Of a DNA stretch of 24,476 bases, positions 5,924 to 22,172 are shown piece by piece. Source of the DNA: Pseudorhodobacter sp. (lineage in GTDB: Bacteria > Pseudomonadota > Alphaproteobacteria > Rhodobacterales > Rhodobacteraceae); contig JAHEDL010000088.1 of NCBI GenBank assembly GCA_024641255.1, forward strand, positions 1 through 24,476, written 5' to 3'. The first letter of the stretch is position 1. Each line of letters starts with the position of its first letter. The translations under genes and the position numbers were made by a program. The notes beneath the pieces were generated by a model. That model worked only from the letters and a program-made list of their open reading frames with translations, was not told the DNA's origin and did not search any database.

Positions 5924-6848
5924 GGTGCAATTACAGAACTACGTCGTCTATATTTTCTTCGCCGTCGTTCTGTTGTTCTTCAGTGTGACCATCGGCGACA
6001 AGGGGTTCTTGTCGGTGATGAACCTGTTCAACATCGCCCGCACCACGGCGATGATCACGGTGATCGCGGTGGCGATGACCTTTGTGATATCGGCCGGAGA
6101 GCTGGATCTTTCGGTTGGCTCAACAGCGGCCTTGGCGGCGCTGACCTGCGGTTTGGTGATGCAGGCGGGGTTTGGTTGGCCGGTGGCGGTTCTGGCCGCG
6201 TTGGTTGCCGGGTTGGCGGTTGGCTGCCTGAACGGGTTCTTCGTCACGCTGATCGGCATTCCGTCTTTCCTTGTGACGCTGGGGATGATGCAGTTCATTC
6301 GCGGTCTGGACATGCGGGTGACTTATACCAACCCTGTGTCGATTTCGAACCAAAGCTTCAACAGCCTGTTCGGGTCGGGCAATCTGTTTGGCGTGCCGTC
6401 GCTGCTGATCTGGTCTTTGGTGATCGCGGTGCTGGGGCATGTGGTGTTGAAATACACCGGATTTGGCCGCGAGATTCTGGCGACCGGTGGCAACCGGATG
6501 GCAGCTGAATATTCCGGCGTGAAGACGCGGCGGGTGAAGTTTGCGGCCTTCTTGCTGTCGGGTGCGGCGGCGGCGCTGGCGGGGATGCTGTATTCTGGCA
6601 TGATGCAGACCGCGCGCTTCAACTTTGGCGAAGGCGCCGAGCTGATGGCGATTGCGGCGGTTATTCTGGGCGGCACCAGCCTGTTTGGCGGGCGTGGCAC
6701 CATTCTTGGCACCTTTGCCGGGTCTTTGCTGATTGGCACGATCAACAATGGTTTGATCATCATGGGGCTGGATGTCAGCGAACAGATGATGGTGTCGGGC
6801 GGGATCATTATTCTGGCCGTGGCCTTCGGCAAGAAACCCACCGCGTAA
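5874..6848 (+). CDS. Ribose-type ABC transporter permease
   Basis: A 324-residue inner-membrane permease (BPD_transp_2, RbsC-like) of about eight to ten hydrophobic helices, full length for the family. Diagnostic segments are 'SAGELDLSVGSTAAL' after the early helices, 'GIPSFLVTLGMM' in the middle, and 'LGGTSLFGGRG' near the C-terminus. The start ATG 5874 lies inside the end of the ATPase gene, with GAGGAG 7 nt upstream. With the binding protein and ATPase it completes one importer, and the operon ends at the terminator 20 nt downstream. Confidence 0.93.
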   Translation: MQSKATAAPRPPSALPKVQLQNYVVYIFFAVVLLFFSVTIGDKGFLSVMNLFNIARTTAMITVIAVAMTFVISAGELDLSVGSTAALAALTCGLVMQAGFGWPVAVLAALVAGLAVGCLNGFFVTLIGIPSFLVTLGMMQFIRGLDMRVTYTNPVSISNQSFNSLFGSGNLFGVPSLLIWSLVIAVLGHVVLKYTGFGREILATGGNRMAAEYSGVKTRRVKFAAFLLSGAAAALAGMLYSGMMQTARFNFGEGAELMAIAAVILGGTSLFGGRGTILGTFAGSLLIGTINNGLIIMGLDVSEQMMVSGGIIILAVAFGKKPTA

Positions 6849-8294: not shown

Positions 8295-9632
8295 TCAGGG
8301 TCGCAGGTGGCGGCCAATCAAGCTTGCCAAGGCTTCGGGATCTTCGATGTGCGGGATGTGTCCGACCCCGCGCAGAAGATGGAGCGCCACCTCTCCCGGT
8401 GCTTTCAGCGCCTGCGACCACGGTAAGATATGATCATCGCGGCCCCAGATCAACGCTGTCGGCGCGGTGACCCTGTCAAGTGCTGCGGTCAGGTCAAAGC
8501 CCTGCACACCATCGGGGAACAGCACCCGCGCCATATCGGATTGCACGGCGCGCAGGTCCGGGTCCAGACGCGCCAGCATTGCGGCTTTGGCAAAATCGTG
8601 GCTGATGCCATCGGGCCGCGCGGTCAGGCGTTTCAGCCACGGCGCAAGGCTTTCGGTGGCGCTGGCACGGGCGATGCCGTTCAAGGCGGCGCCGTCGATT
8701 TCCGGGCCAAGACCGGCAGGGGCCAGCAAGGTCAGGGTCTTGATCTGGCGGGGCCGGATGTCGGCAAGGGCCAAAGCCAAAGCGCCGCCAAGCGAGTGGC
8801 CAAGCAGATGCACCGGGCCTTCGGCAGCCCGGTCGAAGGCCTGCACCACCAGCCGCGCCAGATCGGCAAAGCCTGCGATGCGGCGGCGTGGAGAGCGACC
8901 GTGGCCGGGCAAGTCGATGCGGATCAGCGGCAGGTCGCGCGGCAAAGCGCGTTCCAGTGCCATCCAGCCTGCGGAATCTGCGGCAAAACCGTGGATCAGT
9001 AGCAATGGCGTGCCGGTGCCCTTGCGGGTGGTGACATGCAGATCGCCGGATTCCTCGCTCCATACCGCCGGGGCTGCCGGTTCGGCGGCGTAGACGGGTG
9101 CGGGGGCAGGGGCGGCGGGTTTGATCGCGGCGCGGCGGGCGATTTCACGTTCAACGTCATCCTTCTGGATGCGCTGGCGCGGACCGCTGCCGATGACGCT
9201 TTCCAGCGCGATTGCGGCTTCGCGGGCCAAACGGCGGGCAACCGGGGTGGCACGTGGTGTGCCGTTCGCAACTTCGACCGCTGCAATCGCGGCCACAGGC
9301 GTGGTAACAACTGCGTCGGCAGCAGCAGGAGCGGGTTCTGGAGTGGCCGTTGCTGCTGCCGACGCTACCGATGGGGCGGGGCCCACCGCTTCACCCTCGG
9401 CATAGATGAACGCCAGGGGTGCCCCCACGGCAATGACTTGCCCCGGGGCGGCAAGGATGTGGTGAAGACGGCCAGAGGCTGGGGCCTCGACCTCCATCGC
9501 AGCCTTGTCGGTTTCTATGTCGAACAGCGCTGCACCTTTCTTGACGGTTGCGCCTTCTTCGACATGCCACACCGCCAGCTTGCCGCTGGCCATGTCCATG
9601 TCGACCTTGGGCATGATCACTTCGACGGGCAT
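8295..9632 (-). CDS. Acetoin/2-oxoacid dehydrogenase E2 with C-terminal alpha/beta hydrolase (AcoC-like)
   Basis: 445 residues with the AcoC layout. An N-terminal lipoyl domain carries the lipoylation Lys43 in 'DIETDKAAMEVEAP'. An Ala/Pro-rich linker (about 82-128) follows, then an E1/E3-binding domain ('ATPVARRLAREAAI', about 128-165), a second linker, and an alpha/beta-hydrolase-fold domain (about 200-445) in place of the usual CAT domain. That domain keeps a full Ser-Asp-His triad: 'GHSLGG' (Ser about 280), 'WGRDDHILPW' and 'GVGHIPHIEDPE'. In acetoin dehydrogenase the E2 passes the acyl group from the lipoyl arm to CoA. The ATG start lies 2 nt from the E1 beta stop. No dihydrolipoyl dehydrogenase (E3) gene is next to it. 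The architecture is secure; acetoin itself as substrate is not established. Confidence 0.9.
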   Translation of the reverse strand: MPVEVIMPKVDMDMASGKLAVWHVEEGATVKKGAALFDIETDKAAMEVEAPASGRLHHILAAPGQVIAVGAPLAFIYAEGEAVGPAPSVASAAATATPEPAPAAADAVVTTPVAAIAAVEVANGTPRATPVARRLAREAAIALESVIGSGPRQRIQKDDVEREIARRAAIKPAAPAPAPVYAAEPAAPAVWSEESGDLHVTTRKGTGTPLLLIHGFAADSAGWMALERALPRDLPLIRIDLPGHGRSPRRRIAGFADLARLVVQAFDRAAEGPVHLLGHSLGGALALALADIRPRQIKTLTLLAPAGLGPEIDGAALNGIARASATESLAPWLKRLTARPDGISHDFAKAAMLARLDPDLRAVQSDMARVLFPDGVQGFDLTAALDRVTAPTALIWGRDDHILPWSQALKAPGEVALHLLRGVGHIPHIEDPEALASLIGRHLRP

Positions 9633-9634
9633 GA

Positions 9635-10654
9635 TCAGACCTCGCGCCGGACAAGCTGGCGGGCGGCGGCTTCGATGGCCGGGGCTTGCGGCACGGCTGC
9701 GCGTTCCAGATCGGGGTTGTAGGGGATCGGCGCTTCGGCGCCGCCCAGACGCAGGATCGGCGCGTCAAGGTAATCGAAGGCTTCGCTTTCGGCGATCATC
9801 GCGCTGATTTCGGCACCAACACCCAGCGTGCGTACCCCTTCATACACACACAGCAGGCGGCCGGTCTTGCGGACCGAAGCGATGATGGTGTCGCGGTCAA
9901 TCGGGCGAACCGAGCGCAGGTCGATCACTTCGGCATCAATGCCGTCTTTCGCCAGCTTTTCGGCGGCTTCCAGCGCGCGGTGCACCATGATGGCGCTTGC
10001 AACGATGGTGACATCGCGGCCCGGACGCATGATCTGCGCCTTGCCGATTGGCGTGGTGTAATAGCCTTCGGGCACCTGCGCCTTCATTTTGTAAAGCAGC
10101 TTGTGTTCGAAAATGATCACCGGATCGGGGTCTTCCAACGCGGCAAGCAGCAGGCCCTTGGCATCCGCCGGGGTTGATGGCTGCACCACTTTCAGGCCCG
10201 GAACATGGCCGAACCAGGCTTCGAAGCTTTGGCTGTGCTGGGCTGCGGCCCCGGTGCCAGAGCCTGCGGGCATGCGAAACACCAGCGGCACGGCGGCTTC
10301 GCCCCCCAGCATGTAGCGCATCTTGGCGGCCTGGTTGACGATCTGTTCCATCGCAAGTGCTGCGAAATCGGAAAACTGGAATTCGAAGATCGGCTTCAGG
10401 CCGGTCAACGCCGCGCCGACGGCAACGCCGGCCCCGCCCAGTTCGGAAATTGGCGTATCCATCACGCGGTCGGTGCCAAAGCGTTCGACCAGATCGCCGG
10501 TGACCTGAAACGCGCCGCCGTAGACGCCGATGTCTTCGCCCATCAAGATGACGGTCGGGTCACGTTCAAGGGCGATGGCCATGGCGTCGCGGATCGCTTC
10601 GGCATAGCTCATTTCGCGGGTTTTAACTTCGGGGATTGCGGTCTGGGCGTTCAT
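9635..10654 (-). CDS. Acetoin/2-oxoacid dehydrogenase E1 component, beta subunit
   Basis: A 339-residue transketolase-like beta subunit (PdhB/AcoB family) that forms the ThDP active site with the alpha subunit. Visible features are '[12 protein letters not shown]' (38-49), the cofactor-activating Glu71 in 'PISELGGAG', the active-site His140 in '[12 protein letters not shown]', and the C-terminal transketolase domain ('[11 protein letters not shown]'). The length is normal. The start ATG overlaps the alpha-subunit stop in an ATGA, so the two subunits are made in equal amounts. The substrate is a 2-oxoacid or an acyloin such as acetoin; the AcoC-type E2 next door favours an acyloin-like substrate. 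Confidence 0.92.
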
Positions 10655-11676
10655 GCCGACACCTCTGCGTGGACGAATTTGGTGACTTCGGTGATCTGCG
10701 GCGCGGGGCTTGCCTTGGCAAATTCGATGCCCTGCGCCACGTCGGCTTCGGCGGCCTGTTGCAGCGCGGTGGCGCTTTCGTCGTTCAGGATGCCGTGGGT
10801 GATCAGATCGGCGCGGAAGCGGGCGATCGGGTCGCGCGCCATCCAGCTTTCGATTTCATCTTTGGTGCGATAGCGGTTGCGGTCGGATTTGGAATGGCCG
10901 CGCCAGCGGTAGGTCAGGTTTTCGACAAGGCTTGGGCCTTCGCCAGCCCGCGCGCGGGCGATGGCGCGGTGCATCGCTTCGGCGACCGCCGAGAAATCGT
11001 TGCCGTCAACGGTTTCGCCCGGCATCGAATAGGCGACAGCACGGTCTGCAATGTAGCGCACAGCGGTAGAGCGTTCGATCGAGGTCGACATACCGTATTT
11101 GTTGTTTTCGCAGACGAAAATCACCGGCAGCTTCCAGACCGACGCCATGTTCAGCGCCTCGTGGAAGGCGCCTTCGTTATTGGCGCCGTCACCGAAGAAG
11201 CAGATGGTGACATCATCGCGGCCCAGCCGTTTGGCGGTAAGCGCCGCACCGACAGCGATGGGAAGACCGCCGCCGACGATGCCATTGGCACCAAGGTTGC
11301 CCGTTTTCACGTCGGCGATGTGCATCGAGCCGCCGCGGCCATGGCAATAGCCGGTTTCCTTGCCGAAGAATTCTGCGAACATCCGGCCCACTTCGGCGCC
11401 TTTGGCAATGCAGTGGCCATGGCCACGGTGGGTCGAGGTGATCTTGTCGGCGTCGGTCAGCTCCATGCAGGTGGCGACGGCGCTGGCCTCTTGGCCGATG
11501 GACAGGTGCATGGTGCCGTGGATCAGGCCACGGGTGTAGCTGTCTTCAGCACCTTCTTCGAACAGGCGGATCAGGTACATCTTCTTCAGCGCGGCGCGCA
11601 GGGCGTCGGGGCTAAAGTGGCGGATCGCGAAGGGCAGATTGTCTTGGGCGGTTTCGACCTTGTCTTTCATGGTCAT
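10651..11676 (-). CDS. Acetoin/2-oxoacid dehydrogenase E1 component, alpha subunit
   Basis: A 341-residue alpha subunit (AcoA/PdhA family). The ThDP/Mg motif is complete, starting 'GDGANNEG' (162-169) and ending in the paired Asn 'NN' at 191-192. 'STHRGHGH' (81-88) and '[10 protein letters not shown]' (111-120) are standard active-site segments. The C-terminal loop reads '[15 protein letters not shown]'. The start is taken at ATG 11676, which overlaps the upstream stop as ATGA; ATG 11670, two codons later, is an equally reasonable start. A frame extending to 11868 only shadows the oxidoreductase gene. It couples the oxidoreductase to the dehydrogenase complex. Confidence 0.9.
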
Positions 11677-13001
11677 GCCCCCACCTTGCCGTAGACCAAT
11701 TCGTCCTGGCGCGCGCGCAGGGCTGCGATGCGCGAGCCGTCGGCGGGTTTGGCGTTGGCGTAGGTGATCAGATCGCCCTTGCGGATCGGCGCGGTGACAG
11801 TGCCGCCTGCCAGCAGACCCGACGGAATGGCGCGGGCCGCGCGGGCGTCTTCGGCGGTCATCACCCAAGCGCGGTAGCAGAATTCGCCGATCTGGTCCAA
11901 ACGGTCGCCCGGCTGCATGTCTTTCTTGGCAACGGCGGCGACTTCGGCGACCGGTTTTGCCAGCGGCACCATATCGGCTTTGCCATAAAGCACGACACGG
12001 GCGCAGGTCAGCGGCACCTCAAGCGAGGTGAGGTGATAGGGGCGGTGGAAGGTGAAATACGGGCCTTTGCCCATTTTCAGATCTTCCATGCGTTCGGAAA
12101 TGCGCGGGTGCGACATGTCGGCGACGACGAAAACGCCGGGGGCGACGCCCTTGCCGATGGAGTAATCGACCACGCCGACCTTGTTCAGCACGCCACCGTC
12201 TTTTTTCGGGATCAGCACTTTTGACAGCTGATCCAGCGTTGCCGCCGGGCCGTGCATACCGGCTACGTCGGGCACAAGGCCGGTGGCGTTGGCGATGGCG
12301 GCCATTTCGACCATGGTTTTCGACCCGTCGACGAATTCGACCAGCATGCGCACGTTCATGTGGCGGCGGGCGGCTTCTTCTTCATAGGCGGGGGGCGTGG
12401 CGTCGATGTTCAGCGGGTTGTTTTTGCCCTTGCCAGCCGCCACGATGGTGTGGCCCATGGCGCTGACAAATTCGATCAGCTCCATACAGGACGACGGTTC
12501 GTCGCCCGCGCCCAGCGAATAGGTCACGCCCAGACGGTCGGCTTCGGATTTCAGGTAGGCGCCAATGGTCACGTCGGCTTCGACGTTCATCATCACCAGA
12601 TGCTTGCCATGCTCCATCGCGCGCAGGCCGATTTCAGCACCAACAGCGGGCACGCCGGTGGCGTCGATCACAACGTCGATCAGGCCAGAATTCAGGATTA
12701 GGTCGGCGTCAGAGGTGACAGCAACCTTGCCCGCTTCGATCGCGGTGTTCAGGGCATTGCCAGAGCTGACTTCGCTGGAATGGCCTTTTTCTTGAAAGGC
12801 GATGTCCACGGCTTTGGCGGCGTTCTGCGGGTTCAGTTCGGCAATCGCCCCGATTTCGATGCCGGTCATGTGGGCGACTCGGGTGACGATGTCGGTGCCC
12901 ATTTCGCCAGAGCCGATCAGGCCGATGCGGATCGGGCGGCCGGACTTGGCGCGGGTTTCAAGGTCTTTCGCAAGCCCGGTCGGGGCGACGTTAATGGCCA
13001 T
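11673..13001 (-). CDS. NAD(P)-dependent oxidoreductase with C-terminal SAF-like domain (COG4091 type)
   Basis: 442 residues. The Rossmann motif 'IGLIGSGEMG' (26-35) and a homoserine-dehydrogenase-like N-terminal half ('VVIDATGVPAVGAEIGLRAM', about 110-129) are followed by a substrate-binding region with 'GAGDEPSSCMELIEF' (164-178). The C-terminal part ('KKDMQPGDRLDQIG' onward) looks like an SAF/antifreeze-like domain. This matches proteins called 'predicted homoserine dehydrogenase' (COG4091), whose true substrates are not settled as far as I know. It is the first gene of the E1/E2 operon and overlaps E1 alpha by 4 nt, so it very probably makes or uses the substrate of that complex rather than homoserine. 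A GAGGAA-type site precedes ATG 13001. Confidence 0.85.
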   Translation of the reverse strand: MAINVAPTGLAKDLETRAKSGRPIRIGLIGSGEMGTDIVTRVAHMTGIEIGAIAELNPQNAAKAVDIAFQEKGHSSEVSSGNALNTAIEAGKVAVTSDADLILNSGLIDVVIDATGVPAVGAEIGLRAMEHGKHLVMMNVEADVTIGAYLKSEADRLGVTYSLGAGDEPSSCMELIEFVSAMGHTIVAAGKGKNNPLNIDATPPAYEEEAARRHMNVRMLVEFVDGSKTMVEMAAIANATGLVPDVAGMHGPAATLDQLSKVLIPKKDGGVLNKVGVVDYSIGKGVAPGVFVVADMSHPRISERMEDLKMGKGPYFTFHRPYHLTSLEVPLTCARVVLYGKADMVPLAKPVAEVAAVAKKDMQPGDRLDQIGEFCYRAWVMTAEDARAARAIPSGLLAGGTVTAPIRKGDLITYANAKPADGSRIAALRARQDELVYGKVGA

Positions 13002-13097
13002 GGTGTTCCTCCTTGAGTCTGGCGCCCAGGATGTGTCGTGGGGCCGTTGTTCGGCGGTGCTGCGATTGAATCGAGACGCCTCTGCGATGAGTCTGGT

Positions 13098-13144
13098 TTA
13101 CACTATTGAATGAATTTTTGTCAAAGGCAAAAACAAAATGTTCA
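13098..13144 (-). promoter_or_regulatory. Probable promoter region of the oxidoreductase/E1/E2 operon
   Basis: In the AT-rich gap before the oxidoreductase gene, the minus strand reads TGAACA (13144-13139), then TTGCCT and, partly overlapping, TTGACA (13124-13119), then AATAGT. TTGCCT-17 nt-AATAGT is the best-spaced promoter reading. The TGAACA hexamer upstream of it is the same element found at the other promoters of this cluster. Box assignments are tentative. Confidence 0.4.
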
Positions 13145-13189
13145 GGACGATTGTTGATGTAGCGCAGCGGCACGGCATGAGGAATGACG

Positions 13190-13218
13190 AAAAACGGCCG
13201 CCGACAGGGTCGGGGCCG
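13190..13218 (-). terminator. Rho-independent terminator of the ADH-EryB-SorC operon
   Basis: On the minus strand a GC-rich stem pairs 13218-13209 with 13205-13195 (one bulged base, 3-nt loop) and is followed directly by TTTTT (13194-13190). It lies 22 nt after the stop of the SorC regulator gene, ending that operon and separating it from the oxidoreductase operon. Confidence 0.85.
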
Positions 13219-13240
13219 CTTTGTTTTCAGAAGATAAAGA

Positions 13241-14218
13241 TTACGCGTCGCGCAGCAGGGTCGCGGCGGTGACTTCGTCGGTGATCAGGACGGTTGGTTG
13301 CAACAGCGCCATGGCGCCGCGCAGCGCGGCGACCTTTTCGGTGCCGCCAGAGGCAAGGATGCGTTCGGGCGTTTTGCGCAGATTTGCCAGTGGCACGCTC
13401 ATCACGCGGGTGTTCAGCGGATGGTCAACCAGATCGCCCGCCGCGTCGAAGTAGTTGTAAAGCACGTTGCCAACGGCACCCGCCCGCACCAATTCGCGCC
13501 GCGTCGATTCCGAGATATAGTCAGGTGCGCCGGGGATGCGGTCTGACTGCACGCCGCCGACCGACAAGAGCACCGCGTCCAGTGTTTCCGAAATGGCGAA
13601 AGAGCCGCCGATGCCGCAGCGTTCGATCAGGGCCGATTTGGTTTCGACACTATCGACGATGGCGGGCGCGGTGATCAGATAACAGCGGGCGCGGAACATG
13701 CGCGAAAACTGCCAGGCAAATTCGGCCGGGTTATAGTGCTGCACGTTGGAAATGCCGCCCAGCAGCGACACCACGGTGTCGACCTGTTTTTGGTCAACAT
13801 AATCAAGCGACGAAAACAGCGTTTTGCCCCAGCCGACGCCCAAGGTCATATCAGGGTGCACGAAGTCGGAAATATAGCCGCCGGTTGCCGCGCCAATGGC
13901 AGTTGTCGGATCGCCGTCGGCGGCGGAAAGCGGGGCGACGACGGCTTCGCGCAGGCCAAATTTCTTTTCCAGACTGATTTCAAGTTCGGGCAGATCTGAA
14001 ATGCCGCGGCTAAGCGTGATGGAGACTTCGTGCATGGCGCGGGCATCGGCCAAGAGCCGCGTCACGGTGACCCGACCGATGCCAAGCTTTTCGGCAATCG
14101 CGCCTTGGGTCATTTCTTCGGCGTAATACATCCATGCCACCCGCAGGCGCAGCCGCGCCGACCTGCGGCCGGTTGTTTCGGCGATGGGGGCGACGGTTGC
14201 GGTGCGGCGGTTTATCAT
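13241..14218 (-). CDS. SorC-family (EryD-like) sugar-binding transcriptional regulator
   Basis: A 325-residue regulator. The N-terminal helix-turn-helix is at about 36-58 ('MTQGAIAEKLGIGRVTVTRLL'). A SorC/CggR sugar-phosphate-binding domain follows ('TLGVGWGKTLFSSL', then 'LASGGTEKVAALRGAM' near the end). SorC proteins are usually repressors released by a phosphorylated sugar from the pathway they control. ATG 14218 overlaps the EryB-like stop in an ATGA; a frame extending to 14437 shadows that gene. It is a clear paralogue of the regulator at 18104-19051. Its place in an ADH-EryB operon suggests autoregulation, and the TGTTCA elements in this window are its candidate operators. Confidence 0.88.
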   Translation of the reverse strand: MINRRTATVAPIAETTGRRSARLRLRVAWMYYAEEMTQGAIAEKLGIGRVTVTRLLADARAMHEVSITLSRGISDLPELEISLEKKFGLREAVVAPLSAADGDPTTAIGAATGGYISDFVHPDMTLGVGWGKTLFSSLDYVDQKQVDTVVSLLGGISNVQHYNPAEFAWQFSRMFRARCYLITAPAIVDSVETKSALIERCGIGGSFAISETLDAVLLSVGGVQSDRIPGAPDYISESTRRELVRAGAVGNVLYNYFDAAGDLVDHPLNTRVMSVPLANLRKTPERILASGGTEKVAALRGAMALLQPTVLITDEVTAATLLRDA

Positions 14219-15801
14219 TCGGCCACCTTTGCGATAGGGGCGGACGCCAGCAACGCGGCGATCTCTTGCCGCAGGGCTGAACTGTCTTGGCCGGTCAGCG
14301 CGATCAAGGTGCGGCGCCGCACCAGGTCGTCGGCGGTCTTGACGCGTTCGGTCTTGATCAGATGCGCCAGTTCTTCGCGGCTGTAGTCCGTCAGGGTCCC
14401 AAGCGGGGTTTCGCCTTTGCCGTGCAGGCTGGCGCAATAGTTGCGGGCGCGGGTGCCATAGCGCGACAGAAGTTTGTCGGCGCGTTCGGCGGTGATGCCC
14501 GCCAAGGTGGCTAAGTCACGGGCCAGCGCGGCGCGATCTTTGGCGGCGCGCGGAAAATCTTTGCCGCCGCCGATTGCCAGACCGGCTGTGGTCATTTTGC
14601 GCGGGCGGCCCAGATTGGCCAGAACCAGATCTGTCACTTGTTCGGAAAAACCGCGGAAGGTTGTCCATTTGCCGCCAATCAGGCAATGCACCGGCGTTCC
14701 GTTTGCAAGGCTAAGCGTGGCGATGGAATGGTCGCGGGTGACGGCGCCAATATCGCCATCGGCGCGGGGCAGCGGGCGCACGCCGCAAAAACGATAGGCG
14801 ATCTGTTCGGGCAGGATCGGGATGTTGGGAAACACCTCTGCCACGGCGGCGCACATATAGGCGGCTTCGTCGTCGGTGCAGACAGCCGCATCGGGGTCGG
14901 GTTGCGCGATGTCGGTCGCGCCGACCAGCACCTTGCCCGCAAACGGATACAGCAGGTTCACCCGGCCATCTGCCGTGCCAAAGTAGATCATCCGGCCTTT
15001 CAGGGCGGCCAGCAGCGCGGGGTTATCGACCACCAGATGCGAGCCGCGGCTGCCACCCATCAATTTGGAGTGCAGCCCGATTTGCGCGTTGACCTGATCT
15101 ATCCACGCGCCACCTGCATTCAGAATCACGCGCGGCCGCACCTGATGGGTCTGGCCGTTGACGCGATAGGTCAAAACGCCGTTGTCTTGCCCCAGAATTT
15201 CGGCGTGAGTTTCGGCGCGTGACTGCGGATTTGCCGCTTCGGCGTCCAAAACCAGTTCAAGCCCCAAGCGTTCGGCGTGGGTGATGTGACCTTCGTAGTA
15301 AAGACCAGCGCCGGTGATTTCGGGGGCCAGATCAGGCAGCAGGCGGCGCAAGGCGCTGCGTCGAAGCATGCGATGCGTCGGCGTGGCGCGCAGGGCGCGA
15401 CCGTAAAGATCATAAAGGCGCAGCCCAAGCGCGGTGATGATAAAACCGCGGTCATTCAGCCGGGCCTTGATGCCGAAAAACCGCGCCACCGACCCGAAGA
15501 TGCCGCCGAAGGTTGACCGCACCGGCACCACACATTCCAACGGTTCGACGACATGCGGCGCGGTGGCCAGCAGCATGTTGCGCTCGGTCAGCGATTCCTT
15601 GACCAAACGGAATTCGCCGGTTTCCAGATATTTCAGCCCGCCATGCATCAGCCTCGACGAGGCGGCAGAGGCCCCGGCGCAGAAATCTTCGCGTTCGATC
15701 AGCAGGCAGCGCAGGCCTTGCAGGCAAAGGTCGCGGAAACTGCCGCAGCCGTTGATGCCGCCGCCCAGAATGACGACATCGAAGTCTTCGATCTTAGGCA
15801 T
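14215..15801 (-). CDS. EryB/GlpD-like FAD-dependent polyol-phosphate dehydrogenase
   Basis: 528 residues of the glycerol-3-phosphate dehydrogenase family, resembling EryB (erythritol-phosphate dehydrogenase) more than GlpD by my recollection of EryB's 'GGGINGxGxFRDLCLQG' start. The FAD motif 'VVILGGGINGCGS' is at 9-21, followed by 'SRLMHGGLKYLETGEFRLVKESL', typical of the whole family. Late motifs 'YRFCGVRPLPRAD' and 'GGKWTTFRGFSEQ' and a C-terminal DAO_C-like helical domain are present. It would oxidise a polyol phosphate to a keto-sugar phosphate and pass electrons to quinone at the membrane. ATG 15801 overlaps the ADH stop by 8 nt (a TTG two codons upstream is an alternative). The presence of a kinase (17046-17993) fits a phosphorylated substrate. 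Confidence 0.88.
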   Translation of the reverse strand: MPKIEDFDVVILGGGINGCGSFRDLCLQGLRCLLIEREDFCAGASAASSRLMHGGLKYLETGEFRLVKESLTERNMLLATAPHVVEPLECVVPVRSTFGGIFGSVARFFGIKARLNDRGFIITALGLRLYDLYGRALRATPTHRMLRRSALRRLLPDLAPEITGAGLYYEGHITHAERLGLELVLDAEAANPQSRAETHAEILGQDNGVLTYRVNGQTHQVRPRVILNAGGAWIDQVNAQIGLHSKLMGGSRGSHLVVDNPALLAALKGRMIYFGTADGRVNLLYPFAGKVLVGATDIAQPDPDAAVCTDDEAAYMCAAVAEVFPNIPILPEQIAYRFCGVRPLPRADGDIGAVTRDHSIATLSLANGTPVHCLIGGKWTTFRGFSEQVTDLVLANLGRPRKMTTAGLAIGGGKDFPRAAKDRAALARDLATLAGITAERADKLLSRYGTRARNYCASLHGKGETPLGTLTDYSREELAHLIKTERVKTADDLVRRRTLIALTGQDSSALRQEIAALLASAPIAKVAE

Positions 15802-16831
15802 CGACAATCGCCACTTTCATTGCGCCACCGCTTTCTGCCATTGCAAAAGCGGCATCCATTTCGCCCAAGCCGTAATGGTGGGTCACCATCGACTTTGCGT
15901 CAATCCGGCCATCGGCGATCATGTGCAGGGCGTCTTCGTAGTCTTTGCGCGCCAGACCAAAAGCGCCGGTCAGCCGCAGTTCTTCGTAGTGGATGGCGTT
16001 TACGTCCAAGGAACCAAGTTCGCCTTTGGAAAATCCGGCGAACAGGCTGACGCGGCCGCCTTTGCCGGCAAGCCCGACGGCTTGGGCCGCAAGTGCCGGG
16101 ATGCCGATGGCGCAAATGACCACATCGGCGCCAAGGCCGCGGGTTTCGCCGCGGATCGCGTTGCGCAGGTCGCCTGCGTTGGGGTCGATGACAACGTCAG
16201 CGCCCGCGGCAAGGGCGGCGTCGCGGCGGGCGGCGTTGGGTTCGCTGACGATGACGCGCGCCGCACCGCGCAGGCGGGCAAGCTTGGCGTGCAATGTGCC
16301 GATTGGCCCGGCCCCCAGAATCACAACGGTATCGCCCTGGCGCAGGTTGACCTTGTTCTGACCGTTCAGCACGCAGGCCAGCGGTTCGACCAAAGCGGCC
16401 TCTGCATGGCTGACGTGCGACGGTAAAACGTGGACGTTGCCCAGTTCCAACGCGCGGGCCGGGATGCGGATGTATTCGGCAAAAGCACCGTCGATTTCAT
16501 AGCCAATTGCCGCCAGATCGGGGCACAGGTTTTCACGGCCCCGGACGCATTGCGGGCACTGGCCGCAGGGAATCGCCGGGCAGACACCGACGCGCTGACC
16601 GACCTGAAAACCGCTTGCCGAATCCGCCTGCACGATCTCGCCGGAAAATTCGTGACCAATGATTGACGGATAGCGGATGCCCGCGGTTTTGCGGCCGCGC
16701 AGAACGCGAATATCGGTGCCGCAGATCGTAGCAGCTTTCACGCGCAGAATCAGATCGCCCGGTTCGGCGACCGGATCTGCAGCTACATCCAGAAACATCT
16801 GGTTTGGCGCTTTGAGTATTGCTGCCTTCAT
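15794..16831 (-). CDS. Zinc-dependent alcohol dehydrogenase (MDR, polyol/sugar type)
   Basis: A 345-residue medium-chain dehydrogenase. Catalytic zinc ligands are Cys37 ('TICGTD'), His60 and Glu61 ('GHEFSGE'). The structural zinc has all four cysteines (89, 92, 95, 103; 'CGQCPQCVRGRENLC'). The NAD-binding motif is 'VVILGAGPIG' in the second half. It resembles the sorbitol/threonine dehydrogenase branch and would oxidise a secondary hydroxyl of a polyol or sugar with NAD. ATG 16831 is preceded by GGGAGG; an in-frame extension to 16948 runs through the promoter region and was rejected. It is the first gene of an operon with the EryB-like enzyme and a SorC regulator, divergent from the PfkB kinase. 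Confidence 0.9.
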   Translation of the reverse strand: MKAAILKAPNQMFLDVAADPVAEPGDLILRVKAATICGTDIRVLRGRKTAGIRYPSIIGHEFSGEIVQADSASGFQVGQRVGVCPAIPCGQCPQCVRGRENLCPDLAAIGYEIDGAFAEYIRIPARALELGNVHVLPSHVSHAEAALVEPLACVLNGQNKVNLRQGDTVVILGAGPIGTLHAKLARLRGAARVIVSEPNAARRDAALAAGADVVIDPNAGDLRNAIRGETRGLGADVVICAIGIPALAAQAVGLAGKGGRVSLFAGFSKGELGSLDVNAIHYEELRLTGAFGLARKDYEDALHMIADGRIDAKSMVTHHYGLGEMDAAFAMAESGGAMKVAIVDA

Positions 16832-16851
16832 GGTCACCTCCCGTCGTGATG

Positions 16852-16886
16852 TGAACAAACTATATGGGTAAAATACAAATGCGCAA
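16852..16886 (-). promoter_or_regulatory. Promoter of the ADH-EryB-SorC operon with TGTTCA element
   Basis: On the minus strand a good -10, TATAGT (16864-16859), lies 16 nt from a weak -35, TTGCGC (16886-16881). TGTTCA (16857-16852) begins 1 nt after the -10, at the expected transcription start, a typical repressor position. Confidence 0.5.
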
Positions 16887-16985
16887 ATGATTTCTTCAAT
16901 ATTGTTGCGATGGATGGGGATGCTTTGCGGCGCATAGACTAAATTCAATCGGAAAAACGCAGGCTACACCGATTAAACAAAAGGT

Positions 16986-17014
16986 TTGACAAAGTATCAA
17001 ATGTTCAATTAAGT
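16986..17014 (+). promoter_or_regulatory. Promoter of the PfkB kinase operon with TGTTCA element
   Basis: A perfect -35, TTGACA (16986-16991), is followed after 17 nt by a weak -10, TTAAGT (17009-17014). TGTTCA (17002-17007) sits in the spacer, so a bound protein would exclude RNA polymerase. The start codon is 31 nt further on. Confidence 0.5.
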
Positions 17015-17045
17015 TTTGGGCAGCGACAGACGACGGGAGGATGGG

Positions 17046-17993
17046 ATGCGCTACGACTATGTCTCGGTGGGGTTCTACACCTTCGATTGTCTGGGCTGGC
17101 CGGTGGCCGAAATTCCGCCGGGTGGCGGCACTGTGTTTATCGAAGATCTGACCATGGCGGTTTCGGGCGCTGCGGGAACGGCGGCGATTGTGGCAGCCAA
17201 GCTTGGCCTGAAAACCCTTGCTGTGGGCGGCTATGGCCGCGACATGATGGGGGATTGGGCGGTGCAACGGCTGGAAAGCTTTGGCATCGACACGTCGGGT
17301 TTGCAGCGGTTGGAAGGGGTTCCAACCTCGAGTTCGATCGTGCTGACCCGCGCCGACGGATCGCGCCCGGCACTGCACCTGAAGGGCGCGACCGGGCATT
17401 TCGTGGTGGACCCGGCTGATTTTGATGCGGTGACGGATACCAAAGTGTTCCATCTGGGCGGCGTTGGCCTGATGGATGCGATGGACGGCGCGCGCAACAC
17501 CGCGCTTATGAAACACGCGAAGGCGCGCGGCTGTATCACCACGGTTGATATTTTCGCAGGCTCTGCGGCCGATCTGCCGGATGTTGATGCGGTGCTGCCT
17601 TACACCGACTATTTCATCCCGTCGGTCGAAGAGGCGCATGCGCTGACCGGGTTGACCGATTTGGATGACATGGCGCGGTTCTTTATGGATCGCGGCGCGC
17701 AGGCTTGCGTGTTTACGCTGGGCGGCGACGGGGCGTATTACCGCGACCGTCAGGGGCTTACCTTCCGAATCCCGGCGTATAACATCGACGTGCGCTGCAC
17801 CTGTGGCTGTGGTGATGTGTTCAACGCCGGTTTTGCCGCCGGGTTGCTGAACGGCATGAGCCCGCAGGATGCAGTGCGGTTGGCGCAGGCCAGTTCGGCG
17901 TTGAATGCGACCGGCCTTGGCAGCCAGGCTGGCGTGGTGTCGCTGCAAGATACGCTGGCGTTCATGCGGGCGTGTGAGGTGAAGGTGGCTTAA
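17046..17993 (+). CDS. PfkB-family carbohydrate kinase
   Basis: A 315-residue ribokinase-like (PfkB) sugar kinase. The N-terminal substrate region has 'GAAGTAAIVAAKLGLKTLAVGGYGRDMMG', and the middle has 'DYFIPSVEEAHALTG' and 'VFTLGGDGAYY'. The C-terminal signature reads 'TCGCGDVFNAGFAAGLL', where the catalytic Asp base lies in 'GCGD' (usually GAGD). Full length for the family. ATG 17046 is preceded by GGGAGG at 5-nt spacing; an in-frame start at 17016 lies over the promoter-leader and was rejected. It probably phosphorylates the sugar or polyol-derived ketose handled by this cluster, and its product could be the inducer sensed by the SorC regulators. The substrate cannot be read from the sequence. 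Confidence 0.9.
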   Translation: MRYDYVSVGFYTFDCLGWPVAEIPPGGGTVFIEDLTMAVSGAAGTAAIVAAKLGLKTLAVGGYGRDMMGDWAVQRLESFGIDTSGLQRLEGVPTSSSIVLTRADGSRPALHLKGATGHFVVDPADFDAVTDTKVFHLGGVGLMDAMDGARNTALMKHAKARGCITTVDIFAGSAADLPDVDAVLPYTDYFIPSVEEAHALTGLTDLDDMARFFMDRGAQACVFTLGGDGAYYRDRQGLTFRIPAYNIDVRCTCGCGDVFNAGFAAGLLNGMSPQDAVRLAQASSALNATGLGSQAGVVSLQDTLAFMRACEVKVA

Positions 17994-18103
17994 GGCCCGG
18001 CGTAAGACCAGCAAAGGCTTGCGGGTAAAAGCTTAACGCTCCATTGTGCACAAAGGCTGTCGGGCTATAGCATTGGTCCGACGCAAACGCGCAAGGGATC
18101 AAC

Positions 18104-19051
18104 ATGACGGCAGTAGACGTGACCGATGACGTAAAAACCCGGATTGCCTGGCTGTATTACGTCGAGGGCATGACTCAGGACGAGGTGGCAAACCTTGTTG
18201 GCATGAACCGGTCACGCGTGTTGCGGATTTTGGCGGCGGCGCGGCAGGATGGCACTGTGCAAATCCGGGTCACCACCCGCACGTCGCATTGCGTTGAGCT
18301 AGAGCGCGCGTTGGAGGACAGATGGAGCCTGACGCGCGCCATCGTCGTGCCAGAGCCGCAAGATGAATCGCAACTGCGTGCCATCATCGGTGCCGAGTTG
18401 GGCGCCTATATGTCGCAAGCGGTGACCAGCAACATGACCGTCGGTCTGGGCTGGGGCAAAACGCTGACCAGCGGCGTTCCGGCGATTGTTCCGCGCACGC
18501 CGGATGGGGTGCGGGTGTTGTCGCTGTTGGGTGGGCTGACGCGTGTGTCAGAGGTGAACCCGTCAGAATTTGCATGGCGGGTGGCGGATAAGCTGTCGGC
18601 TGAATGTTACATGCTGGCAGCCCCGGTCTATGCGCCCGACTCGCGGACCCGCGATGCGCTGATGCAGCATTCCGGTATTGCCGAGGTTTTCGCCCGCGCC
18701 CGTTCGCTGGATATGGCGGTGATTTCGGTGGGCGATCTGACGCCGCATTCGGTGTTTTCCGAATATGGCCTGCTAAGCCGGGAAGAGATTTCTTCGCTGG
18801 TCGATGCCGGTGCGGTCGGCGACGTGCTGTGCCACTTTGTGGATGCAGAGGGCAATCTGGTGGACCATCCGGTGAATAACCGGGTGCTGGCGGTGAACCC
18901 GATTGATCTGCGCGGCACGCGCAACATCGTGCTGGCGTCAGGCGGTTGGCACAAGCTGACGATCCTGCGCGCGGCGTTGAAAATGCTGCGCCCGACGGTT
19001 CTGATCGTTAACGAGCTGATCGCAGAGCGGCTTGCGGCAGAGCCGCGCTAG
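18104..19051 (+). CDS. SorC-family (EryD-like) sugar-binding transcriptional regulator, second copy
   Basis: A 315-residue SorC regulator. The helix-turn-helix is at about 23-45 ('MTQDEVANLVGMNRSRVLRIL'). A sugar-phosphate-binding domain follows, with 'TVGLGWGKTL' in the middle and 'LASGGWHKLTILRAALKMLRPTVLI' at the end. It is a paralogue of the regulator at 13241-14218: the two share the 'AW.YY.E.MTQ' start of the HTH, 'LVDHP.N.RV' and the C-terminal 'LASGG' segment. The recognition helices differ (MNRSRVLRIL against IGRVTVTRLL), so they may bind related but different operators. It lies 110 nt after the kinase gene on the same strand and is probably co-transcribed with it. Confidence 0.87.
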   Translation: MTAVDVTDDVKTRIAWLYYVEGMTQDEVANLVGMNRSRVLRILAAARQDGTVQIRVTTRTSHCVELERALEDRWSLTRAIVVPEPQDESQLRAIIGAELGAYMSQAVTSNMTVGLGWGKTLTSGVPAIVPRTPDGVRVLSLLGGLTRVSEVNPSEFAWRVADKLSAECYMLAAPVYAPDSRTRDALMQHSGIAEVFARARSLDMAVISVGDLTPHSVFSEYGLLSREEISSLVDAGAVGDVLCHFVDAEGNLVDHPVNNRVLAVNPIDLRGTRNIVLASGGWHKLTILRAALKMLRPTVLIVNELIAERLAAEPR

Positions 19052-19129: not shown

Positions 19130-19837
19130 ATGGTCGATACTCTGCCCGCCGCGCAGCCGGAACGCAAACGTGGCCATGGTGTGCGGCTTGCTTATGAAGT
19201 GCTGCGCGATGAGATCCTTGATCTGACGCTGCCGCCCGGTAGCCCGGTAGACGAAGCCACCTTGGCCGAGCGTTTCGCGATGTCGCGCACCCCGATCCGC
19301 GAGGCTTTGGTGCGGCTGGAAGGCGAGGGGCTGGTTGTCACGCTGCCGAACCGGTCGACCGTGGTGGCCAATATCGACTTTGCCAATCTGAACGCGTTTT
19401 TCGACGCGCTGACGCTGATGTACCGCGTGACGACGCGGCTTGCCGCCGAATTTCACAGCGACCCTGATCTGCAGCGTATTCGCGCGAAACAGGCGGTGTT
19501 TGCCACCGCGGTCGAGGCGGGGGATGAGTTGGCGATGATTGCCTGCAATCGCGATTTTCATGTGGCCATCGCCGAGGCCGGACGCAACGGCTATTACCTG
19601 CAGCTTTTCGCGCGCTTGCTGGATGAAGGGCGGCGGATTTTGCGGCTGTATTACTACCCCAGTTTTGAAAGCAGCCTGCCGCATCCCTATGTGATTGAAC
19701 ACGAAGCGATTATCGCCGCCGTTGCGGCGCGCGACATTGATCTGTGCGACAGGCTGGCCAGGGATCATGCTGACCGCATCGTGCAGCAAATTCGCGACAT
19801 GATCGCCCGCGATAGCCGCCGCGACATTCGGATTTAG
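19130..19837 (+). CDS. GntR-family regulator with FCD domain
   Basis: A 235-residue FadR-subgroup GntR regulator, probably controlling the hydroxyproline genes that follow. The winged HTH covers about 20-82, with 'DEATLAERFAMSRTPIREAL' at 41-60. The FCD effector domain has the expected metal-ligand pattern: Asn140/His144 in 'CNRDFHVAIAEAG' (Asn where many have Asp), His191 in 'EHEAIIAAV' and His213 in 'RDHADRIV'. ATG 19130 follows AAAAAGGGA. An in-frame extension to 19076 has no comparable ribosome site and was rejected. The TTGTCGACAA palindrome just downstream matches the TNGT..ACNA type of site bound by this subgroup. Confidence 0.87.
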   Translation: MVDTLPAAQPERKRGHGVRLAYEVLRDEILDLTLPPGSPVDEATLAERFAMSRTPIREALVRLEGEGLVVTLPNRSTVVANIDFANLNAFFDALTLMYRVTTRLAAEFHSDPDLQRIRAKQAVFATAVEAGDELAMIACNRDFHVAIAEAGRNGYYLQLFARLLDEGRRILRLYYYPSFESSLPHPYVIEHEAIIAAVAARDIDLCDRLARDHADRIVQQIRDMIARDSRRDIRI

Positions 19838-19883
19838 GCCAGCTTTACGCGGGGCGGGGTGGCTTTTGTGACGTTCGAAATTC

Positions 19884-19919
19884 TTGTCGACAAATAAAAT
19901 GCAAAGTTTATGCTATAAT
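19884..19919 (+). promoter_or_regulatory. Promoter and GntR-type operator of the hydroxyproline genes
   Basis: TTGTCGACAA (19884-19893) is a perfect 10-bp palindrome of the TNGT-ACNA form typical for FCD-type GntR proteins. A perfect -10, TATAAT (19914-19919), lies 20 nt beyond it. The -35 position (about 19891-19896, CAAATA) is poor, so the promoter may depend on an activator or be tightly regulated. The start codon is 43 nt downstream, behind AAGGAGG. Confidence 0.55.
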
Positions 19920-19962
19920 CATCTGATCCAGATTCGACCCCGTTCTTCGAAGGAGGCTCTTC

Positions 19963-20922
19963 ATGAATTCCAGCATTTTTTCGGGCACGATCCCGGCCCT
20001 GATGACGCCCTGCACCGCAGACCGCAGCCCTGATTTCGACAAGCTGGTTGAAAAGGCCAAAGAGCTTGTGCGGGTTGGCATGTCTGCGGTGGTGTATTGC
20101 GGGTCGATGGGCGATTGGCCGCTTTTGACCAATGAACAGCGGATGGAAGGCGTAGAGCGTCTGGTGGCCGCCGGGATTAAGGTTGTGGTGGGCACCGGGG
20201 CTGTGAACACCGCGACGGCTGTGGCGATTGCGGCGCATGCGCAAAAAGTCGGCGCGCATGGTCTGATGGTGATCCCGCGGCTGTTGTCGCGTGGCACGGT
20301 GCCTGCGGCGCAAAAGGCGCATTTCAAGGCGGTGCTGTCGGCCGCGCCTGACCTGCCTGCGGTGATCTATAACAGCCCCTATTACGGCTATTCGACCAAG
20401 GCCGACCTGTTCTTTCAGATCAGGGCAGAGCATCCGAACCTTGTTGGCTTCAAGGAATTCGGCGGCTTTGATGATCTGTCTTATGCGGGCGAGGCGATTA
20501 CCAGCGGTGACGACGCGATCAAGCTGATGATCGGCGTCGATACGGCGGTGTTCCACGGCTATGTGAACTGCAATGCCGATGGCGCGATTACCGGGATTGG
20601 CAATGTGTTCCCCAGTGAAGTGCTGCACCTGACGGCGCTGTGCAAGGCGGCGATGGCGGGCGATGCCGAGGCGCGCAAGCTGGCTTTCGAATTGGACAGC
20701 GCGATGCAGGTGTTGTCGAAGGTTGATGCGGGGCCGGATCTGGTGCTGTTCTTCAAGCATATGCTGGTGCTGCAAGGTGACGACGCCTATCGGCTGCATT
20801 TCAACGAAAGCGATGCGCTGTCGCCCAGCCAGAAGGGCTTTGTTGAAAAGCAATTCGCGCTGTTCAATGCGTGGTATGCGGATTGGTCGCAGCAGCCGAA
20901 CGTGTTGCAATACGCGGCTTAA
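19963..20922 (+). CDS. DapA-family deaminase, probably pyrroline-4-hydroxy-2-carboxylate deaminase
   Basis: A 319-residue dihydrodipicolinate synthase-like TIM barrel. The Schiff-base Lys164 lies in 'LVGFKEFGGF' and the catalytic Tyr136 in 'VIYNSPYYGYSTK'. 'GSMGDWPLLTNEQR' (47-60) replaces the 'GTTGE' of true DapA, which argues against lysine biosynthesis. Placed with a D-amino-acid-type dehydrogenase and a hydroxyproline epimerase, it most likely deaminates Delta1-pyrroline-4-hydroxy-2-carboxylate to alpha-ketoglutarate semialdehyde. ATG 19963 follows AAGGAGG. The family is certain; the specific reaction rests on context. Confidence 0.82.
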   Translation: MNSSIFSGTIPALMTPCTADRSPDFDKLVEKAKELVRVGMSAVVYCGSMGDWPLLTNEQRMEGVERLVAAGIKVVVGTGAVNTATAVAIAAHAQKVGAHGLMVIPRLLSRGTVPAAQKAHFKAVLSAAPDLPAVIYNSPYYGYSTKADLFFQIRAEHPNLVGFKEFGGFDDLSYAGEAITSGDDAIKLMIGVDTAVFHGYVNCNADGAITGIGNVFPSEVLHLTALCKAAMAGDAEARKLAFELDSAMQVLSKVDAGPDLVLFFKHMLVLQGDDAYRLHFNESDALSPSQKGFVEKQFALFNAWYADWSQQPNVLQYAA

Positions 20923-20934
20923 GGAGAAACGGCG

Positions 20935-22170: not shown

Positions 22171-22172
22171 CC

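Follow-up and report, generated by a model that had tools for sequence, protein, structure and literature searches.

What does an alphaproteobacterium consume with a gene set in which polyol-type dehydrogenases and a sugar kinase stand beside an acetoin-type dehydrogenase? The question is raised by a stretch of 24,476 nt from Pseudorhodobacter sp. (assembly GCA_024641255.1, contig JAHEDL010000088.1, positions 1 to 24,476), called the window throughout, in which a first-pass annotation had recognised an alcohol dehydrogenase (ADH), an EryB-like enzyme, a PfkB kinase, a COG4091 oxidoreductase, an acetoin-type dehydrogenase and two SorC regulators. The NCBIfam and Pfam profile matches by which families were assigned here bore out all of these families and their coordinates; the Pfam scan covered 30 open reading frames (ORFs) of the window, and most of the 93 ORFs of at least 80 aa overlap or run antisense to these 30. 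We consider it likely that the core of the set, a type II 1-deoxy-D-xylulose 5-phosphate reductoisomerase (DXR-II) with E1-alpha, E1-beta and E2 genes, forms an operon for the catabolism of a methyl-branched C5 polyol. The best candidate is 2-C-methyl-D-erythritol, which would be degraded via 2-C-methyl-D-erythritol 4-phosphate (MEP) and 1-deoxy-D-xylulose 5-phosphate (DXP).

The COG4091 oxidoreductase is a type II DXR

The COG4091 protein, encoded at 11673-13001 on the minus strand, matched the Pfam DRL_cat model (PF21135) with 229 bits against a cut-off of 27, and aligned without gaps over 434 residues with the solved DRL structures 3UPL/3UPY (E = 1e-206). Judged from its sequence the protein is a DXR of type II (DRL), and interconversion of MEP and DXP is its predicted reaction. 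The part of PMC3847144 drawn on here names K191, K193 and T229 as fosmidomycin/substrate-binding residues and E174, F178, R320 and Y322 as residues of the dimer cavity, and places G121, H250 and V351 among those separating DXR-II from its sister families DLO1 and DLO2; the window protein has every residue named there. The same part describes two functional DXR-II paralogues each for M. loti and O. anthropi.

Residues were compared between 145 DXR-II copies (87 clustered, 55 solitary and 3 with a phosphotransferase system (PTS) only; classes defined below) and 22 DLO paralogues. K191, K193, N194, N195, T229, H250, F178 and R320 were invariant in all 145 copies. The paralogues mostly had S at position 229 (15), A or L at 250 (8 each), Y at 194 (16), L at 195 (16) and W at 178 (20), with neither T229 nor H250 among the four commonest residues at those positions; K191, K193 and R320, retained in 20, 14 and 8 of the 22 paralogues, respectively, are weaker discriminators. 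Furthermore, across 299 genomes spread evenly over the phylum, DXR-II copies scored at least 618 bits and other matches at most 338, a DXR-II-level match being present in 14 of the 31 genomes with any match at E <= 1e-60. The residues and this score gap rule out a generic COG4091 (DLO) identity.

The identification sharpens the idea, put forward in the first-pass annotation, that a 1-deoxy or methyl-branched sugar or polyol is turned into an acyloin and cleaved by the acetoin-type complex. With a DXR-II in the operon this idea gains support and becomes specific, the predicted conversion being that of MEP, a methyl-branched polyol phosphate, to DXP, a 1-deoxy-ketose with an alpha-hydroxyketone group.

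The host genome (3.08 Mb, 84.9% complete) also encodes a canonical DXR-I (contig C620, 408.7 bits against a cut-off of 315.7) and a canonical DXS (contig C574, 812.7 bits). The window DXR-II is thus not the sole DXR of its host, and with DXS and DXR-I present this copy is not needed for isoprenoids. Likewise, another E1-alpha, 44% identical, is encoded on contig C622, so that the E1 of the window is not the sole E1 of its type, as would be expected if it were the pyruvate dehydrogenase of the host.

Gene order in the window

Four minus-strand genes form the core unit. The start of the E1-alpha gene (10651-11676; PF00676, 300 bits), for a thiamine diphosphate (ThDP)-dependent dehydrogenase, overlaps the DXR-II stop by 4 bases, and is followed on the same strand by E1-beta (9635-10654; PF02779/PF02780; NF006667, 408 bits against a cut-off of 321) and by an E2 of the acetoin-dehydrogenase type (8295-9632), in which Pfam recognises lipoyl, E3-binding and alpha/beta-hydrolase domains and which passes NF011457 (PRK14875) with 340.9 bits against a cut-off of 307. 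E1-alpha lies just under the cut-off of the pyruvate dehydrogenase (PDH) equivalog model (TIGR03182, 376.9 against 393.85), and NF006667, which E1-beta passes, represents a PDH E1-beta subfamily; none of the models discriminates between substrates.

A three-gene unit precedes the core on the minus strand, separated from it by an AT-rich gap of 239 bases between the first regulator and DXR-II. It comprises the zinc polyol/sugar dehydrogenase (ADH; 15794-16831; PF08240 and PF00107), the EryB/GlpD-like FAD polyol-phosphate dehydrogenase (14215-15801; PF01266 and PF16901, DAO and DAO_C) and the first SorC-family sugar-binding regulator (13241-14218; PF04198, 162 bits), which overlap by a few bases, 4 in the case of the EryB and SorC genes. 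Across a divergent intergenic region, located by direct reading at 16832-17045, the PfkB/ribokinase-family kinase (17046-17993; PF00294, 136 bits) and the second SorC regulator (18104-19051; PF04198, 186 bits) run on the plus strand, divergent from both minus-strand units. The kinase, our candidate methylerythritol kinase, has 3H49 (ribokinase/YdjH) as its nearest solved relative and is the sole sugar kinase among the 30 scanned ORFs. The PDB relatives of the EryB-like protein are the glycerol-3-phosphate dehydrogenases 3DA1 and 2QCU, and those of the ADH include threonine, sorbitol and galactitol-1-phosphate dehydrogenases, with (R,R)-butanediol dehydrogenases further down. Neither an FGGY (EryA-type) kinase nor an EryC-type isomerase occurs among the 30 scanned ORFs, as the first-pass annotation had noted for EryA and EryC, and membership of the erythritol pathway was rejected on this ground.

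A probable ABC importer of the ribose type is encoded on the plus strand nearby, with a periplasmic sugar-binding protein (3151-4320; PF13407), an ATPase with two ATPase domains (4394-5923; PF00005 in two stretches) and a permease (5874-6848; PF02653, 147 bits).

Conservation of the core among DXR-II loci

Eighty DXR-II loci were taken as the best 80 of at least 565 in a species-genome collection, so that the survey leans to Rhizobiales and Rhodobacteraceae; 34 further copies in those genomes, 14 from a sample of the window's family and 4 more were added, and the rest came from plasmid records. The survey was seeded by DXR-II similarity and is dominated by two alphaproteobacterial groups, and some draft assemblies may miss genes. 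Copies with E1-alpha within 12 kb were termed clustered and those without E1/E2 genes solitary. Because this is how solitary copies were defined, their lack of E1 is no evidence, and loci of DLO paralogues, picked regardless of their neighbours, served as the control. Neighbouring genes were recognised by BLAST with fixed reference proteins, which would miss dissimilar kinases or importers. One locus, L067, from a record titled Bacillus subtilis SK6B4, has a DXR-II of alphaproteobacterial type (79% identity), and its assembly is probably mislabelled or contaminated.

Conservation of the gene set had been named beforehand as the test on which the first-pass annotation should stand or fall, and the result leaves it standing: in 81 of the 87 clustered loci the recognised genes DXR-II, E1-alpha, E1-beta and E2 follow one another on the same strand. 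In five others (L012, L027, L035, L044 and L054) a contig end interrupts the series, and Priestia (L008) has the one differing arrangement, with the E1/E2/Lpd genes upstream. In 86 of the 87, the first gene recognised behind DXR-II is E1-alpha. None of E1-alpha, E1-beta or E2 was found near any of 20 DLO paralogue loci or the two plasmid-borne ones (L243 and L244). SorC regulators showed a similar preference, being near 58/87 clustered, 3/55 solitary and 0/22 paralogue loci.

Four loci, L011, L013, L028 (Tabrizicola soli) and L259, have the full set of the window, with both SorC regulators, PfkB, ADH and EryB; the arrangement is therefore not due to chance. Similar ABC importer genes lie beside the cluster in these four loci (in L028 only partly) and in L065, L066 and L074. 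In Sinorhizobium meliloti Rm41 (pRM41A, L005) the order is ABC importer, PfkB, SorC, DXR-II, E1-alpha, E1-beta, E2, Lpd and lipoyl synthase, with EryB and ADH coming after two hypothetical genes; in Rhizobium sp. L51/94 it is GutM, IIC, IIB, IIA, ptsP, SorC, DXR-II, E1-alpha, E1-beta and E2. Pseudoroseomonas, Terrarubrum and Priestia provide further annotated examples.

A thiamine synthesis operon (thiC onwards) begins two genes downstream of the Rhizobium sp. L51/94 cluster (L004:16814-21311). The thiazole part of thiamine is likewise made from DXP. In a separate tally of 70 clustered loci, for which any E1-alpha, E1-beta or E2 match sufficed and which includes L082 with an E1-beta-like match of 27% only, thiC was near none.

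Interchangeable phosphorylation systems

Clustered loci whose flanks extended for 8 kb or more on either side numbered 64, and 49 of them had a recognisable phosphorylation system. A glucitol-type PTS was found in 24, the PfkB of the window type in 10, another PfkB subfamily in 17 and an FGGY match in 3, some loci having two. By comparison, a weak FGGY match was the sole such function at the fully flanked solitary loci (1/22), and the paralogue loci had none (0/22). The parts that supply phosphorylation, either PfkB kinases or a glucitol-type PTS, are interchangeable.

In alphaproteobacteria, Priestia, Listeria, Ligilactobacillus and Enterococcus, no more than about 10 kb separates the glucitol-type PTS from DXR-II, and IIC and IIB of the Rhizobium sp. 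L51/94 locus each pass one of two curated models. The product that a PTS hands on is a polyol phosphate; should DXR-II be the enzyme receiving it, this would most simply be MEP.

Other PTS genes and ThDP enzymes were seen in these neighbourhoods. A galactitol-like PTS (IIA, IIB and IIC) lies beside clustered and solitary DXR-II genes of Mesorhizobium and Ochrobactrum-like genomes (L039-L041, L046-L049, L190, L191, L193, L194 and L198). At loci with DXR-II and PTS genes but no E1/E2, Enterococcus raffinosus has a phosphoketolase (L242:6082-8463) and Ligilactobacillus salivarius a transketolase and an FSA-type aldolase (L010:14907-17566); phosphoketolase or transketolase may be a local stand-in for the cleavage step proposed below.

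Co-occurrence with DXR-I

DXR-I was present in 33 of 94 genomes with DXR-II, and every one of the 33 carries a clustered copy; one of them, G328, is exceptional in having a solitary copy as well. Among the 61 genomes that lack DXR-I, solitary copies occur in 49, and 31 of these 49 have a clustered copy too. Over the decided genomes, and with kinship ignored, the association has a Fisher p of 7e-15. In this count the contig-edge copies L085 and L182, placed among the 55 solitary ones elsewhere, were treated as undecided; L038 was left out, as was L267, which is the same gene as L084 and is included in the 87 clustered loci. DXR-I was scored present in G531 (partial, below the cut-off) and in G526 (three fragments). 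The fragments of the latter, whose DXR-II is clustered, lie at G526:C131:11804-12517 and reflect a decaying gene or else a faulty assembly.

The least selected part of the 94 is the family sample, a subset drawn from 198 genomes, each representing a different genus of the window's family (G000 and G384, the latter equal to G325, were already in the first set). DXR-II was found in 15 of the 198. The 11 with DXR-I, the host included and counting one partial and one fragmented gene, all have it clustered, and the 4 without DXR-I all have it solitary; in this sample DXR-II stands alone where DXR-I has gone and in the operon where DXR-I is kept.

On a FastTree phylogeny, solitary copies are scattered inside clustered clades, with 17 state changes and many weak forks. 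The pattern is in keeping with a catabolic enzyme recruited after loss of DXR-I, the direction of change being our interpretation.

Proposed pathway

The direction of reaction, the substrates, the importer and the regulation proposed here are predictions, as is all function, from the families, signature residues, conserved gene order and coexistence with DXS and DXR-I described above. The polyol would enter by the adjacent ABC importer, and PfkB would phosphorylate methylerythritol to MEP; in other lineages the glucitol-type PTS would import and phosphorylate it in one step. DXR-II would then oxidise and rearrange MEP to DXP with reduction of NADP+, the reverse of its reaction in isoprenoid synthesis, and the E1/E2/E3 complex would cut the C2-C3 bond of DXP to give acetyl-CoA, NADH and glyceraldehyde-3-phosphate. 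This oxidative, CoA-linked cleavage would pull the DXR-II step. The SorC regulators may sense a phosphorylated intermediate. EryB and the zinc ADH probably widen the substrate range; they might, for example, oxidise a threo isomer at C3 and reduce it again, or oxidise a deoxypentitol.

DXP, CH3-CO-CH(OH)-CH(OH)-CH2-OPO3, is an alpha-hydroxyketone (acyloin). Acetoin dehydrogenase cuts the carbonyl-carbinol bond of acetoin and passes the acetyl group via lipoate to CoA. According to the part of PMC3424233 used here, purified PDH makes 1-deoxy-D-xylulose from pyruvate and D-glyceraldehyde, and a mutated E. coli PDH permits an unknown reaction leading to DXP; for the formation of 1-deoxy-D-xylulose it also cites a 1986 paper with acetoin dehydrogenase in its title. 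The window E2 passes the acetoin-dehydrogenase cut-off, and in some other clusters the E2 carries the standard acyltransferase domain of 2-oxoacid dehydrogenases, so that two unrelated domains occupy the same slot. These findings on PDH and on the E2 domains make cleavage of DXP by this complex plausible.

Weighing the evidence

Several observations weigh against this pathway. The sequences of E1 and E2 cannot tell DXP from acetoin or a 2-oxo acid as the likely substrate. The DXR equilibrium favours MEP, and reverse flux needs a pull. Ten of the 61 genomes without DXR-I hold clustered copies only (two more being undecided at contig edges), and there the clustered copy would have to be biosynthetic too, unless the assemblies are incomplete. 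Only six independent pairs differing in DXR-I are available on the DXR-II tree, of which about 3.5 go the expected way and none the contrary way (p 0.125-0.25); the genome-level association with DXR-I is thus not significant in phylogenetically independent pairs. With the reference proteins used, no kinase or PTS was recognised in 15 of the 64 full-flank clusters. Moreover, DXR-II, PTS and SorC genes occur without E1/E2 genes within 10 kb in Listeria, Ligilactobacillus and Enterococcus, and the solitary loci L204, L238 and L240 look catabolic yet lack E1: L204 and L240 have SorC, a ribose-type ABC importer and a weak FGGY match, and L238 an adjoining SorC.

In Mesorhizobium L017, one of the 15 clusters in which no kinase was recognised, a scan of ten ORFs revealed no kinase except, at the far end, a ROK-family protein. 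Behind this cluster lies an ABC transporter of the aminoethylphosphonate/polyamine kind, which might, at a guess, import an already phosphorylated compound.

The core could work as proposed on a related natural substrate, such as 2-C-methyl-threitol, 1-deoxy-pentitols, 1-deoxy-D-xylulose or a methylerythritol conjugate, with EryB and ADH essential. EryB/GlpD-type enzymes do act on polyol phosphates, the two SorC regulators suggest two signals, and EryB and ADH recur side by side in 12 clustered loci, one of them that of the window, along with the window-type PfkB, another PfkB or a PTS. Yet most clusters lack the pair: in the 70-locus tally EryB matched in 11 (one distant and unpaired) and ADH in 12 (two distant and unpaired), and L036 and L037 have the window-type PfkB without either. 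The pair is therefore more likely an optional accessory that extends the substrate range than part of the core, and the erythritol-type interpretation that the first-pass annotation had drawn from EryB finds no support. A route through 1-deoxy-xylulose, moreover, would dispense with DXR-II, the constant part of the clusters. We judge a related substrate with essential EryB and ADH rather unlikely.

We give very little credence to a biosynthetic operon, in which E1/E2 or a side reaction yields DXP and DXR-II turns it into MEP as a second, inducible entry to the MEP pathway, although 11 DXR-II proteins are reported to complement a DXR-deficient E. coli (PMC3847144, in the part cited), the mutant PDH of PMC3424233 leads to DXP in E. 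coli, by the passage cited above, and the ten genomes with clustered copies only fit this scheme. The host has DXS and DXR-I; kinases, PTS and SorC genes are far commoner with clustered than with solitary copies; and the 33 DXR-I genomes, which have no need of it, all carry the clustered copy, for which an exclusively biosynthetic role was thought unlikely there. The locus might, lastly, be two unrelated catabolic neighbours, a polyol or butanediol unit (kinase, ADH, EryB and SorC) and an acetoin or 2-oxo-acid dehydrogenase unit with a redundant DXR-II. The 239-base AT-rich gap, the butanediol dehydrogenase among the lower ADH matches, which would fit acetoin, and the independent variation of the EryB/ADH and PfkB units speak for such a division; the 4-base overlap of DXR-II with E1-alpha and their near-constant succession speak against it, as does the excess of phosphorylation functions at clusters over solitary and paralogue loci, acetoin needing none. 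We regard it as highly improbable. A plain acetoin/butanediol operon was likewise thought unlikely, DXR-II being the constant first gene, in spite of that lower ADH match.

Beyond the catabolic operon for methylerythritol favoured here, a broader proposition seems to us evenly balanced: that DXR-II is catabolic at root; that a widespread, often plasmid-borne gene set consumes methylerythritol, with interchangeable phosphorylation, by the first MEP-pathway steps run in reverse; that the isoprenoid role was recruited after loss of DXR-I; and that the carbon source is methylerythritol from plants or isoprene-derived 2-methyltetrols from air.

Other genes of the window

Two further plus-strand genes lie beside the ABC importer, encoding a beta-keto acid cleavage enzyme (BKACE; 880-1827) and an alpha/beta hydrolase (2136-3059); an alpha/beta hydrolase accompanies the importer in L011, L013, L065, L066 and L074 too. 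At 19130-23174 the plus strand encodes a GntR/FCD regulator, an enzyme of the dihydrodipicolinate-synthase family, an FAD oxidase and a proline-racemase family protein, a set which we take to resemble a hydroxyproline catabolic cluster and which is separate from the DXR-II finding. A protein with RTX calcium-binding nonapeptide repeats is encoded at 23206-24459 (minus strand). ARAGORN found no tRNA in the window, and no Rfam family reached its gathering score there.

Comparison with known systems

Why bacteria with DXR-I should also have DXR-II was asked in PMC3847144, which, in the part available, finds no common trait except pathogenicity in animals and proposes gene dosage or fosmidomycin tolerance for the redundant enzyme; its main text has no words beginning catabol-, acetoin or transporter. 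Among the matches listed in full-text searches of the open-licence literature, judged by titles and the starts of abstracts, no methylerythritol catabolism or catabolic role of DXR-II was found. If true, such a role would answer why these bacteria keep DXR-II and explain its patchy distribution; it would also predict consumers of methylerythritol, and perhaps of isoprene-derived 2-methyltetrols, and offer enzymes for salvage of MEP and DXP.

Compared with the DXR-II of the Brucella abortus type, which serves the MEP pathway, the window protein is of the same family with the same substrate-binding and dimer residues, but it lies in a sugar-uptake operon with an acyloin dehydrogenase, DXR-I is kept, and the opposite direction is proposed. 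With the acetoin dehydrogenase complex (AcoABC; PRK14875) the window shares an E2 above the curated cut-off and, by our proposal, the chemistry (acyloin, CoA and NAD+ to acyl-CoA and an aldehyde), the acyloin being DXP and not acetoin. In the ery pathway the product is isomerised towards erythrose-4-phosphate; the window lacks EryA and EryC among the scanned ORFs, and a split by the ThDP acyloin dehydrogenase is proposed instead. What it has in common with the eryABCD loci of Rhizobiales (PMC3599248, in the part cited) is an EryB-like FAD dehydrogenase, by family match, regulators of the SorC/EryD type and, as proposed, phosphorylation followed by oxidation; EryA, EryB and EryD were ubiquitous across the 19 loci described there, with 65% identity as the cut-off for EryB orthologues.

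The glucitol/sorbitol PTS operons (gut/srl) have a counterpart in the GutM, IIC, IIB and IIA set beside many DXR-II clusters, whereas the window itself has a kinase and no PTS. Where DXR-II stands in the PTS clusters, a gut/srl operon would be expected to have sorbitol-6-phosphate dehydrogenase, and the polyol carried by the cluster-linked PTS is probably methylerythritol. The parts of the system are of known families and its logic of import, phosphorylation, oxidation and cleavage is of a known kind; the combination, the substrate and the direction appear to be new.

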